A stretch of DNA of 64,000 nt. It comes from Secundilactobacillus odoratitofui DSM 19909 = JCM 15043. GTDB taxonomy: Bacteria; Bacillota; Bacilli; Lactobacillales; Lactobacillaceae. Position numbers and translations under genes: made by a program. Positions 9,419 to 16,190 of this stretch are shown piece after piece. The notes beneath the pieces are model-generated. The model was not told the origin of the DNA. It did not search any database and saw nothing but the letters and a program-made list of their open reading frames with translations. The stretch is from assembly GCF_001434895.1 (NCBI RefSeq), contig NZ_AZEE01000028.1, positions 496,502-560,501 of the forward strand, read 5' to 3'. Positions within the stretch are counted from its first letter, which is position 1; each line of letters begins with the position of its first letter.

Positions 9419-9447
9419 TTTACAAATCATGAAAATCCGATTAAGAT
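9419..9447 (+). promoter_or_regulatory. Promoter of T-box-controlled operon
   Basis: TTTACA (9419-9424) and TAAGAT (9442-9447) with a 17-base spacer, placed about 25-30 bases before the first part of the T-box leader. Confidence 0.6.
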
Positions 9448-9474
9448 ACTTTTAAATTAAAAAATAATTAAAAG

Positions 9475-9725
9475 CAATGAAGAGCAAGATTAGACAATTA
9501 TTTCTTTCAGAGAATTCGTGGTTGGTGTAAACGAATAAAAATGATTATCGAAAGTAGGCTCAGAGCTATGAATGCGAATTTTGAGTGTTCATTGGGTGCC
9601 CCCATTATCAAGGCCAGCGAATCCGACTATTGTCGTGCTCGCTAAGGTTGCACTCGTTGCAACATCTCAAGGTGGTACCGTGCATTGCTTTTGCGCCCTT
9701 CGATTTATTTCGAAGGGCGCTTTTC
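9475..9725 (+). promoter_or_regulatory. T-box leader, specifier probably AGU (Ser)
   Basis: A tRNA-sensing T-box riboswitch. The T-box sequence AAGGTGGTACCGTGC is at 9669-9683, followed by a strong terminator (stem 9693-9703 / 9710-9720 with Ts). Upstream, Stem I can be folded: GAGC pairs with GCTC at its base, GACAATTATTT pairs with AAATGATTATC above, leaving the internal loop GAA-AGT-A at 9550-9556. In known T-boxes the codon after GAA and before A is the specifier, here AGT for serine. The UGGU bulge would pair best with a tRNA whose discriminator is A, while tRNA-Ser normally has G; however the Asp T-box in this window shows the same UGGU. Serine is therefore likely but not proven. Confidence 0.88.
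9693..9725 (+). terminator. T-box conditional terminator
   Basis: Stem GCGCCCTTCGA / TCGAAGGGCGC with loop TTTATT and a following T-rich stretch; competes with the antiterminator formed by the T-box sequence. Confidence 0.85.
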
Positions 9726-9756
9726 ATTTTTAATATTATTTTAGGAGGTCTTTTCA

Positions 9757-10494
9757 TTGACATTATTTGACTCGCAAGCCCAAGCAACAGGAACTATTAT
9801 TCCTGCAGCCGGCGATGGCAACAGTTTTAAACTACTTAGCACTCAAGCATTCCCCGCCATCTTACTCGATGGCACTTTAACGACCCAGACACTACTAGCT
9901 GAGGACAATCAGGGATTACTTTCCTTATCAGAATATGCCAAATTCTGTCGTGACATGAGTCTAAAGAAAACGACTAGGTTGATTGCAGATTTGCAATCTG
10001 GGTTTGGGAGCCCGCTCAACACTTACTATGCCGCTCAAGAACTTGAGCGCAGTGGCGCCGATATTTTACTGCTTAATGATCAAAAATATCCGGCTCACTC
10101 CACCAAGGATCCCGCTACCACAACACCAGCTGATTTAATTGGCAAGCTCAGAGCTGCCATTGACGGTTTGGATAACCCCAACACGGAAGTTTGGCTGAAA
10201 TTAGAAGGCATTACGAGTTACGGTATCGACGGATTATTAAAACGAATTCACTATGCTAGTAATGCTGGTGCCGATGCCATTGTGTTGGCCCACTGTCAAC
10301 CAGAACAGCTCAACTCAATTCTTGCTCAACAGCCTGAACTGCCGATTCTAGCCACTTATCAATCATCGCAACCCGCCATTGCTGGTTTAGCTGGATGGCT
10401 GGACGATGGCTACCTTGCAATGCAAGCTCAGTCGGCACGCGAATCAGCTCTGAAAACACTTACAAAGGAAGTCTTTGAATATGCTAAAAAATGA
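9757..10494 (+). CDS. Isocitrate lyase/PEP mutase superfamily protein, catalytic residues lost
   Basis: 245 residues, TTG start after AGGAGG (9743-9748). It aligns with the following gene product over the core barrel: IADLQSGFGS matches FADADTGYGD, and LLLNDQKYPAHS matches FIEDQVWPKRCGH. In this protein the second metal-site Asp is Gln, the Glu of IEDQ is Asn, the KRCGH catalytic loop is absent, and the SRTDAR arginine segment is replaced by KLEGIT. It also lacks the C-terminal helices. It is therefore either a non-catalytic partner of the next protein or an enzyme with another reaction. It overlaps the next reading frame start by 14 bases, which suggests coupled translation and a complex. 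Confidence 0.75.
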   Translation: MTLFDSQAQATGTIIPAAGDGNSFKLLSTQAFPAILLDGTLTTQTLLAEDNQGLLSLSEYAKFCRDMSLKKTTRLIADLQSGFGSPLNTYYAAQELERSGADILLLNDQKYPAHSTKDPATTTPADLIGKLRAAIDGLDNPNTEVWLKLEGITSYGIDGLLKRIHYASNAGADAIVLAHCQPEQLNSILAQQPELPILATYQSSQPAIAGLAGWLDDGYLAMQAQSARESALKTLTKEVFEYAKK

Positions 10495-11386
10495 TCGAAT
10501 ACGACAACAATTTCAAAAAATGGTATTAAGTGGCCACATTGTTCGAATGATGGTGGCGCCCGATGCTTTAGCGGCTAAAATTGCCCAATCTTGTGGTGCT
10601 CAGGCCGTGTTTAGCGCTGGTTACGCCACCAGCGCATCCGCACTCGCGATGCCAGATCGAGGGATTAGTGATTTTGGCATGGCCATTGAGCGGTGTCGTG
10701 AAATTATTAATGCGGTTGATATTCCGGTATTTGCTGATGCTGACACCGGCTATGGTGATCTCGCAAACGTCAAACGGACCGTCGAAAGTTATGAAGCAAT
10801 TGGTGCTGCGGGGATTTTCATCGAAGATCAAGTTTGGCCTAAGCGTTGCGGCCACATGGATGGTAAAAAAGTCGAACCAACCGAAGTCTTGGAAGCTAAA
10901 ATTCGAGCTGCCAAGGCAGCTCGGCAGCACGATGATTTTTTGATTATGTCCCGTACTGATGCACGAGCAGTCTACGGCCTAGACGACGCGATTGAACGTA
11001 GTAAACGGTACAAAGCCGCTGGAGCAGATTTGATTTTTATCGAAGCGCCACAAAGCTCAGCCGAATTGGAAACGATTCATGAAGCCTTCCCAAACACACC
11101 AATGATGGCCAACATGATTGAAGATGGCAAAACACCGCTGACTAAAACCGAAGATTTGGAACGACTCGGCTTTAATATCGTTGTCCATCCCAACGCCATG
11201 ACGTACACGCAAACCTATGCTGAAGAACAATTGGTCAAAACCCTCCAACGTGATGGGACAACCAAGGCGTACAAATCTCAGATGATTACCTTCCCCAAAT
11301 TTAATGAGTTTGTAGGGTTAGACGAAGTGAATGCGCGGGATGCAACGTACGCACCCGAAAAAATGGCACAGTATCTCACTGATTAG
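10481..11386 (+). CDS. Isocitrate lyase/methylisocitrate lyase-like carboxylate lyase
   Basis: 301 residues of the isocitrate lyase/PEP phosphonomutase superfamily. The Mg site FADADTGYGD, the IEDQ glutamate, the catalytic loop PKRCGH, the SRTDAR arginine and the MANMIEDGKTP asparagine are all present, which favours a C-C lyase (methylisocitrate lyase, oxaloacetate hydrolase or a related 2-hydroxy-dicarboxylate lyase) over a phosphonomutase. Exact substrate cannot be told. ATG at 10481 with AAAGGA 11 bases before is chosen; TTG at 10475 is an alternative. No other propionate or methylcitrate genes are nearby, so a methylcitrate role is unlikely. Confidence 0.85.
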   Translation: MLKNDRIRQQFQKMVLSGHIVRMMVAPDALAAKIAQSCGAQAVFSAGYATSASALAMPDRGISDFGMAIERCREIINAVDIPVFADADTGYGDLANVKRTVESYEAIGAAGIFIEDQVWPKRCGHMDGKKVEPTEVLEAKIRAAKAARQHDDFLIMSRTDARAVYGLDDAIERSKRYKAAGADLIFIEAPQSSAELETIHEAFPNTPMMANMIEDGKTPLTKTEDLERLGFNIVVHPNAMTYTQTYAEEQLVKTLQRDGTTKAYKSQMITFPKFNEFVGLDEVNARDATYAPEKMAQYLTD

Positions 11387-11422
11387 ATTCATACATACAA
11401 TTAATAGATTGGAGTCCTATTT

Positions 11423-12718
11423 ATGGCAGCAAATTCACTCGGATTAGAATCACAGCTTAACGCAGCACGCGAAACGCCCCTATTTTATAAAGTCTTCCTC
11501 TTAGCCGGCGCCGGCATCATGTTGGACGCTGCGGACGTTTACATTGCCAGTGCGATTAACGGCGCCATGGTCGCCTCCGGTTTCGCGAGTATTCAGGCCG
11601 GATCATTATTTCTTTCAAGCGGCTTCTTAGGTTTATTTTTAGGATCACTGCTTGCTGGTTACATTGGCGACTTTTACGGCCGGAAAAAAGCTTACCAATA
11701 TAATCTGTTACTTTTTGGTGCATTCACGTTATTGTCAGCTATTGCACCCAACATTTTAATTCTGACCATTTTCCGCTTATTCGCAGCCACCGGTCTTGGC
11801 GCCGAAATTGTGACCAGTTACGCCATCGTCAACGAATTTGCACCAATCAAACGCCGGGGCCATTGGTCAGGCATGACCGCCATTGTGGCCAACAGCGGTG
11901 CCCCCCTTACGCTGTTAATTGCGACCTTCATGATTCCAAAGTTTGGCTGGCGCTCAATGTTTCTCTTACTCGGTGCACTAGCGATTCTACTTTGGTTTGC
12001 TCGCCGTCACTTCCCAGAATCTCCTCGTTGGTTACTTGCTAAGGGACGGACCGAGGAAGCCAACACCATTATCAAACAGTTAACCTCACGTGGCTTGTAT
12101 GAAGAAACACGTTCACAAGAACAATCAGGCCAACCCACCAGTCACCTCAGCTTTGGTAAGGGTTTATTCATCGCCATTATCGCAGTCAGTGCAACACTGC
12201 TATGTCAATATACGTTTACAAGTTGGGTGCCAACGTTGCTATTGAAGCGTGGTATTAACATCGTCAGTTCCATTGGTTTCTCAGCAATCATGATGTTAGG
12301 CGCCCCAATCGGATCCGCAATTGGTGCCTTTCTCGCTGATCGAACTGGTCGTAAGAAAGTGATTTTATTCGGTTTTCTGGCAGTCGCCATTTTGGGCGTT
12401 GCATACGCATATGAGACAACCACCATTGGTATCTTGATCAACGGTTTTCTCCTGACTGTAACACTATATATCTTAGTTGCCACCGTAGTTAGTATCTATA
12501 CGAATGAACTCTTCGAAACCAGTCATCGATTCAGAGGGGCTGGCATTGCAAATGGGATTTCAAAACTACTCAACGTGTTGATGCCCACAGTGGTTGCTTT
12601 CATCATTACGGCCGCTTCGCCATCGTTTTTATATTATGGCATTGCCGCCATCGCCATCATCGCGGCGATTGTGATTCAGGTCTGGGGACCAGAAACGGAT
12701 CAAAAAGCCATTAAATAA
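11423..12718 (+). CDS. MFS transporter, metabolite:H+ symporter type
   Basis: 431 residues with about 12 membrane helices in two halves and a cytoplasmic loop near residue 225-245. Motifs of the sugar-porter/aromatic-acid symporter branch are clear: GDFYGRKKAY after helix 2, PESPRWLLAKGRTEEA at the central loop and ADRTGRKKV in the second half. Members carry sugars, aromatic acids, nicotinate or dicarboxylates. As third gene behind the two lyase-family genes and the T-box, it probably imports or exports the carboxylate (or its product) handled by them; this is inference. ATG follows TGGAG. A strong terminator lies downstream. Confidence 0.88.
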   Translation: MAANSLGLESQLNAARETPLFYKVFLLAGAGIMLDAADVYIASAINGAMVASGFASIQAGSLFLSSGFLGLFLGSLLAGYIGDFYGRKKAYQYNLLLFGAFTLLSAIAPNILILTIFRLFAATGLGAEIVTSYAIVNEFAPIKRRGHWSGMTAIVANSGAPLTLLIATFMIPKFGWRSMFLLLGALAILLWFARRHFPESPRWLLAKGRTEEANTIIKQLTSRGLYEETRSQEQSGQPTSHLSFGKGLFIAIIAVSATLLCQYTFTSWVPTLLLKRGINIVSSIGFSAIMMLGAPIGSAIGAFLADRTGRKKVILFGFLAVAILGVAYAYETTTIGILINGFLLTVTLYILVATVVSIYTNELFETSHRFRGAGIANGISKLLNVLMPTVVAFIITAASPSFLYYGIAAIAIIAAIVIQVWGPETDQKAIK

Positions 12719-15989: not shown

Positions 15990-16190
15990 AAAAGCACCCT
16001 TGTTTTCACAAGGGTGCTTGGCACGGTACCACCTTAAATTTACTCATCCATAACGTCGGACACGAATAATCACTTATTCACCTCAAAAGTGTCTTCATTA
16101 AACTGCCTGCTATGGTCTTCCATTAACCGGCCACTTTCTGAAAGTCACAGCTTAATTACTTATCTTTATCATCGGTATTTTCAATATTTA
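15990..16190 (-). promoter_or_regulatory. T-box leader of hisS-aspS, specifier GAC (Asp)
   Basis: Read on the minus strand: Stem I with the AGTA loop-E-like motif near its 5' side, then GAA-GAC-A in the specifier loop (GAC at 16093-16091, Asp), the T-box AAGGTGGTACCGTGC at 16035-16021, and a terminator AAGCACCCTTG / CAAGGGTGCTT (about 15992-16019). Asp T-boxes on hisS-aspS are known in lactobacilli. The UGGU bulge faces a G-discriminator tRNA here. Confidence 0.92.

Follow-up and report, generated by a model that had tools for sequence, protein, structure and literature searches.

We analysed a 64,000-nucleotide (nt) stretch of the Secundilactobacillus odoratitofui DSM 19909 = JCM 15043 genome (contig NZ_AZEE01000028.1; hereafter the window), in which a T-box leader RNA at 9468..9703 on the plus strand precedes three genes of the same direction. 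The first gene, g1 (9757..10494, +), starts with TTG and encodes a 245-residue degenerate paralogue of the phosphoenolpyruvate (PEP) mutase/isocitrate lyase superfamily. The second, g2 (10481..11386, +), encodes a lyase of the same superfamily with a complete active site, 301 residues long from its ATG, and the third (11423..12718, +) encodes a 431-residue transporter of the major facilitator superfamily (MFS). Both g1 (36.1 bits) and g2 (147.4 bits) exceed the 31.5-bit cut-off of Pfam PF13714 (PEP_mutase), while the transporter matches MFS_1 with 140.9 bits. The stop codon of g1 and the ATG of g2 overlap by 14 nt. The initial annotation of this DNA had described a complete T-box ahead of three same-direction genes and an overlap of the first two frames, and both descriptions hold.

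The leader matches the Rfam T-box family (RF00230) with 106.4 bits against a gathering threshold of 93 (cmscan, E 1.7e-22), and it is the only gathering-level Rfam match in the window. Its antiterminator region (9670..9692, +, limits approximate) contains the T-box sequence AGGUGGUACCGUG with the UGGU bulge, and the antiterminator sequence AAGGTGGTACCGTG is present in the leader. Folding placed an intrinsic terminator hairpin of 11 pairs followed by TTTT at 9693..9720 (+), with a z of −4.6 and equal stability in 0 of 200 shuffles.

To assign the amino acid, we calibrated the specifier position on the other T-boxes of the same genome (42 matches, 30 as loci), using the reading rule GAA-N-codon-purine. 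In the Rfam alignment, the window leader shows GAAA-GUA-G preceding the closing strand of stem I, within GAAA-GUA-G-GCUC. The T-box of valS, whose identity was confirmed by NCBIfam, reads GAAA-GUA-A, and the window specifier stands in the same context (GAAAGUAA). At the same position, the T-boxes of pheS and trpD read UUC and UGG, and those of genes named by reading their proteins read CUC (leuS), CGC (argS) and AUG (two methionine genes). GUA was also read in two T-boxes below the gathering level, one of 87.6 bits ahead of a carrier for branched-chain amino acids (TIGR00796) and one of 91.8 bits ahead of a panE/apbA family gene. A scan of 12 of the 30 tRNA loci of the genome located tRNA-Val(UAC) at three places, and the sequences read carry a discriminator A, which matches the UGGU bulge. 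Read in this way, the T-box specifies valine, an assignment that the initial annotation had left open, and control of the operon is very probably valine-responsive.

The alignment of g2 shows the DxD, E, KRCGH and RTD motifs, so that the complete set of lyase residues noted in the initial annotation is confirmed; D86, D88, E115, K121, C123, G124, H125 and R158 are invariant in 22 of 22 rows, and R122 of the KRCGH loop is nearly so. We take the roles of the DxD, Glu, KRCGH and Arg residues to be those of E. coli PrpB. The best solved relative of g2 by sequence is the petal death protein (1zlp, E 2.3e-59), and its best NCBIfam equivalog is methylisocitrate lyase (TIGR02317, residues 8–289), with a score of 254.9 bits that lies below the cut-off of 354.4. 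For the transporter, the nearest NCBIfam model is the aromatic acid/H+ symport family (TIGR00895, 177.3 bits), again below the cut-off (418.55). From its active-site residues, g2 is highly likely to be an active lyase.

Although clearly homologous, g1 retains the first metal Asp but not the other residues: the second metal Asp is replaced by Gln and the Glu by Asn, the KRCGH loop is absent and the Arg is replaced, in agreement with the losses first listed for this protein. The C-terminal end also stops ~50 residues short of that of g2. Its family shares these changes: all 19 aligned rows carry Gln in place of the second metal Asp, the Glu is replaced and KRCGH is absent; no aligned g1 homologue keeps the catalytic residues. 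The alignment covers 19 of the 22 loci described below and leaves out L038, whose start is unclear, together with the split L041 and the truncated L053; another alignment included L038 and the L053 fragment, without L041. The family has invariant residues of its own, including D78, Q80, G82, F83, G84, D108, Q109 and P112. An AlphaFold2 model of g1 (mean predicted local distance difference test score 89.1) gave 2,3-dimethylmalate lyase (3fa3) as its best Foldseek match (E 3.8e-15, template modelling score 0.84 by query length); as modelled, g1 has the superfamily fold. Ratios of nonsynonymous to synonymous substitution rates (dN/dS) were obtainable for g1 and g2 alike in two of the five pairs tried, both of them close pairs: g1 gave 0.045 and 0.072, g2 gave 0.003 and 0.019, and a third pair yielded a value for g2 alone (0.044). 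The low values indicate that selection acts on g1, but less strongly than on g2.

With g1 as the query, a search of 251 family genomes, sampled evenly out of a larger group, gave a match in 25. In 20 genomes g1 lies next to g2, at 22 loci with the window counted once; three others (G012, G050 and G199) hold only a single relative of g1, and G139 and G189 are the remaining two. Each of the 22 g1-type genes has an adjoining g2, including one g1 that is broken in two (L041). A related MFS gene follows directly downstream at 18 of the 22 loci, with a shorter frame at L052 and a split one at L053, and is divergent at two (L048 and L049). The conservation of the pair in other Lactobacillaceae, mostly together with the transporter, supports the initial annotation. 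A T-box stands before the pair at 15 loci, 13 at the gathering level and two more (L043 and L045) at 67.5 bits, and the specifier is GUA in 13 of these 15. The 14-nt overlap recurs at 9 of 20 measured loci by the g2-start rule and at 12 of 20 when the upstream ATG is taken at L040, L043 and L045; counted with the upstream ATG, it is present at 12 of the 15 T-box loci. This overlap and the co-occurrence of the two genes indicate that g1 is probably a non-catalytic partner of g2.

Beyond the family, 63 of 398 phylum genomes match g1. We considered whether g1 relatives with an intact active site elsewhere belong to the degenerate family and rejected this, as far as seen, by the motifs of the best 19 loci outside the window genome (L094–L112), of which 18 have KRCGH or KKCGH and 17 have RTD. 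These motifs were read in the longest frame picked by pattern, which in some cases is possibly that of a neighbouring paralogue. Within the family sample, L053 combines a truncated g1 with an MFS gene in two frames, a sign of decay or of an assembly error.

The initial annotation had asked whether the T-box is always attached to the pair. It is not, as the 15 of 22 loci show; still, three of the seven others carry a valine- or isoleucine-rich leader peptide. At these loci (L050–L052, genus Nicoliella, g32), a short leader open reading frame with a ribosome-binding site replaces the T-box before g1, g2 and the MFS gene; L051 is the Nicoliella spurrieriana (Lactobacillaceae) plasmid NZ_CP093360.1, found among the 20 listed of 127 plasmid records. 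The leader peptides contain the runs VVVSVQVVVSVV (L050) and SVAVQVVV (L051), rich in valine, and SIAIQIIII (L052), rich in isoleucine, and a terminator-like hairpin, folded for L050 and L051, lies between the leader frame and g1 at all three loci. A valine- or isoleucine-rich reading frame followed by a terminator hairpin is the layout of a leader-peptide attenuator. In 2000 first-order random sequences for each locus, such a run was reached in 0 (L050), 1 (L051) and 46 (L052) cases; the main argument for the isoleucine leader is therefore its resemblance to the valine leaders. As read, the leader peptides point to the same amino acids by a second, different mechanism. A valine- or isoleucine-rich leader was also located at L113 (7597–7857).

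A more degenerate, single relative of g1 is present in six of the 251 genomes (G012, G050, G081, G088, G108 and G199), three of which (G081, G088 and G108) also hold the g1-g2 pair. At all six loci (L054–L058 and L060), a T-box with a GUA or GUU specifier, which scores 74 to 88 bits and so falls short of the gathering threshold of 93, has the single relative as the first gene after it. An acetolactate synthase-like gene is divergent from it in 6/6, followed by ilvC in 5/6 (the ilvC of the L054 genome lies on a different contig); ilvA comes after the single relative in 5/6, being absent there in L058; the ilvB and ilvA identities were confirmed by profile scan for L055 only. All six genomes have ilvC above the cut-off, out of 28 such genomes in the sample (Fisher p 1e-6). 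Through the pair and again through these single relatives behind valine T-boxes, the degenerate family is linked to valine on two counts.

The window genome (31 contigs, estimated completeness 99.98%) gave no match to ilvC, ilvD or leuA in its contigs, and the branched-chain aminotransferase gene ilvE is present. Without a detected ilvC or ilvD, pyruvate made by g2 could not give valine by the usual pathway, and with the aminotransferase present, 2-oxoisovalerate would be the simplest useful product. The petal death protein, the nearest solved relative of g2, cleaves 2-alkylmalates. We also searched 299 phylum genomes for g2 and found relatives at E 1e-60 or better in 24 genomes besides that of the window (41–55% identity). 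Six clostridial regions that we read, with lyases 44–55% identical to g2, are clusters with LeuC-like and LeuD/DmdB-like genes. In L200 (223–7961), three lyase genes, the first 55% identical to g2, are interleaved with two LeuD/LeuC-like pairs and followed by a transporter, and the lyase of L204 has a LeuD-like gene next to it; scanned proteins of these two regions match the 3-isopropylmalate dehydratase and LeuD/DmdB families. In L201, L202, L203 and L205, aconitase-type subunits, named by reading the proteins, lie some genes from the lyase. The proximity to the petal death protein and the LeuC/LeuD(DmdB) context together suggest that g2 is a 2-alkylmalate-type lyase, and on the same grounds the earlier label of a central-carbon-like lyase is probably off.

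We propose that, on valine starvation, uncharged tRNA-Val(UAC) would pair with the T-box at the GUA specifier and at the UGGU bulge; the terminator would not form, and transcription would continue into g1, g2 and the MFS gene. The transporter, judged by its family, would import a carboxylate, and g2 would cleave the imported acid by PEP mutase/isocitrate lyase superfamily chemistry, the reaction being read from its active site. The g1 protein, translated via the 14-nt overlap, would most likely bind g2 as a partner or regulatory subunit. The cleavage could be that of 2-isopropylmalate into 2-oxoisovalerate and acetate, or another 2-isopropyl-substituted malate could be the substrate. Taken as a whole, a valine-starvation operon whose lyase makes 2-oxoisovalerate from an imported 2-alkylmalate-type acid is a tentative reading, to which we give a little less than an even chance. 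As to its chemistry, 2-oxoisovalerate as the product is plausible without being quite probable, and 2-isopropylmalate as the substrate is possible but rather doubtful. A broader extension, which we regard as unlikely, is that a heteromeric 2-alkylmalate lyase would let valine-starved lactobacilli recover the leucine-pathway acids excreted by their neighbours (2-isopropylmalate and its isoleucine counterpart) as branched-chain oxo-acids, and that the dead-subunit family, placed behind valine T-boxes close to ilvA and ilvBC, has found a second use as a regulator of branched-chain amino acid synthesis.

Several observations weigh against this valine-starvation reading. No T-box was found at seven of the 22 pair loci (L047–L053), and the two 67.5-bit T-boxes of L043 and L045 show no GUA by the rule. 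The leader of L052 is rich in isoleucine, with a run matched by 46 of 2000 random sequences. At L048 (8454–9839) and L049 (2805–4199), an Mga-type regulator gene lies between g1-g2 and the divergent MFS gene; the L048 regulator passes the NCBIfam AcpB/EbpR/MafR model and the Pfam Mga domain, and that of L049 is alike by reading. At the unbroken L047 and the apparently decayed L053, we found no recognised leader or regulator. The related MFS gene is missing at L040, where an MFS gene of another type is present, and at L042, and the split g1 beside an intact g2 at L041 means that g1 may be dispensable there, or that the assembly is wrong. With respect to metabolism, ilvC is enriched in the pair genomes (9/20 vs 19/231, Fisher p 5e-5), and a leuA-like gene is present in 16 of the 20, none above the NCBIfam cut-off; a 2-isopropylmalate lyase at its side would run a futile cycle unless the T-box controlled the timing. 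The isoleucine counterpart of 2-isopropylmalate is rare in nature. The enrichment of ilvC also led us to reject the loss of valine synthesis as the sole explanation of the pair.

Other explanations of the operon differ in what they make of the same genes. If the substrate of g2 were citramalate, 2-methylisocitrate or oxaloacetate and its product pyruvate (or acetate with oxalate-type compounds), valine control would only reflect the path from pyruvate through acetolactate to valine. Methylisocitrate lyase is indeed the best equivalog for g2 at 254.9 bits, and ilvC and ilvD are above the cut-off in 9/20 and 10/20 pair genomes, where pyruvate could reach valine; however, g2 stays below the 354.4-bit equivalog cut-off, 11 of the pair genomes, that of the window among them, show no ilvC above the cut-off, so that this route from pyruvate to valine would be closed there, and pyruvate is abundant in lactic acid bacteria. 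We consider a pyruvate product unlikely. A different division of labour, in which g1 is an enzyme of its own or a ligand sensor (for example, of a branched-chain oxo-acid or valine) and not a subunit of g2, seems doubtful but should be kept in mind. The six genomes with a single g1-like gene near ilvA and ilvBC and without an adjoining g2 speak for it, since there the fold would work by itself, as do invariant residues peculiar to g1 such as D78, Q80 and D108. Yet these lone genes have degenerated further and could have a different role, none of the 22 g1-type genes lacks an adjoining g2, and the 14-nt overlap, taking the upstream ATG, is kept at 12 of the 15 T-box loci.

The valine signal might also have reached the operon without a metabolic reason, through T-box shuffling that placed a carboxylate catabolism module under valine control. 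T-boxes are numerous in the window genome, with 42 matches, and T-box duplication with change of specificity is on record (PMC3766115). The Mga-type regulator at two loci (L049 by likeness) and the lack of a recognised leader at the unbroken L047 fit such a history as well. Against it, the valine signal returns in unrelated forms, once as a T-box and once as a leader peptide, and it is found again in the distinct operons that hold the single g1 relatives; shuffling is quite improbable in our view. Least of all do we expect a retro-aldol cleavage of ketopantoate to 2-oxoisovalerate and formaldehyde, with pantoate serving as a valine source together with the panE-like gene behind a valine T-box. 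The GUA T-box before a panE/apbA family gene of the window genome is in its favour, as is the membership of PanB in the same superfamily, but the family matches of g2 are with alkylmalate and methylisocitrate lyases, and PanB is not among them. The panE-like proteins of lactic acid bacteria are known as D-2-hydroxyacid dehydrogenases, which would also count against ketopantoate; passages of PMC9241929 call panE a ketopantoate reductase only and lend no support to a dehydrogenase role. The lyase making 2-oxoisovalerate from an imported alkylmalate-type acid is the reading that we prefer.

The surroundings of the operon add a few further features. A candidate sigma-70-like promoter (TTTACA-17-TAAGAT, 9419..9447, +) stands ahead of the leader; it is weak, with 9/12 positions matching, and is only a candidate because the region has nine such matches where shuffles have a mean of 6.5 (standard deviation 2.9). 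The neighbours are on the opposite strand, msrA upstream and an aspS-hisS pair downstream, named by reading their proteins. Ahead of the hisS-aspS pair lies a second, weaker T-box match of 82.9 bits (window 16007–16181, −; L082), whose codon, by the same reading rule as for GUA, is GAC (Asp). Elsewhere in the genome, three panE/apbA genes (L073, L083 and L144) have a T-box match just upstream, at 91.8, 81.7 and 55.7 bits, all below gathering; that of L073 reads GUA and that of L083, the second panE-like gene, perhaps GAC. Before 30 panE-like loci, GAAAGTA was seen in two T-boxes (L121 and L122) by an automatic reading that is incomplete, as its pattern missed cores and orientations.

The initial annotation had inferred that amino acid shortage switches on uptake and cleavage of a carboxylate by a lyase with a degenerate partner. 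This is supported in part: the pair is mostly under amino-acid-responsive control, while the T-box is not universal and the central-carbon label probably does not fit. If the valine-starvation reading is true, the operon would be a route to valine that bypasses acetolactate, and it would explain an orphan lyase pair that is annotated just as "isocitrate lyase/PEP mutase family" in one annotated record. The g1 family would then be a conserved pseudoenzyme family whose function is directly testable via a named amino acid signal, and the switch between T-box and leader peptide on the same operon would be a natural regulatory replacement that points to the metabolite.

Compared with known valine-class T-boxes (RF00230), the leader described here has the same parts, namely a complete leader, a GUA specifier as in valS, the UGGU bulge, the terminator and the antiterminator, and differs in the genes that it regulates, a lyase pair and an MFS transporter. 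The word "lyase" is absent from the main texts of the T-box papers PMC2494555 and PMC3766115, whose supplements may list the operon, and our literature search found no publication on the g1-g2 pair, though T-box surveys may list it. With the petal death protein and 2,3-dimethylmalate lyase, g2 shares the catalytic motifs, and the former is its best match among solved chains, but here it comes with a degenerate paralogue and under predicted valine control. With PrpB, it shares the catalytic residues and the TIGR02317 alignment, yet it lies ~100 bits under the equivalog cut-off, and we read no prpC or prpD among the neighbouring genes of the operon in the window. Pairs of an enzyme and a pseudoenzyme, such as Pdx1 with Pdx1.2, likewise consist of homologous proteins of which one is stripped yet conserved; active enzyme/pseudoenzyme pairs are not known from this superfamily, though no search aimed at them was made. 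The leaders of L050–L052 resemble the ribosome-mediated attenuators of the ilv/leu type in their valine- or isoleucine-rich reading frame and hairpin, and differ in preceding an operon that is elsewhere controlled by a T-box.

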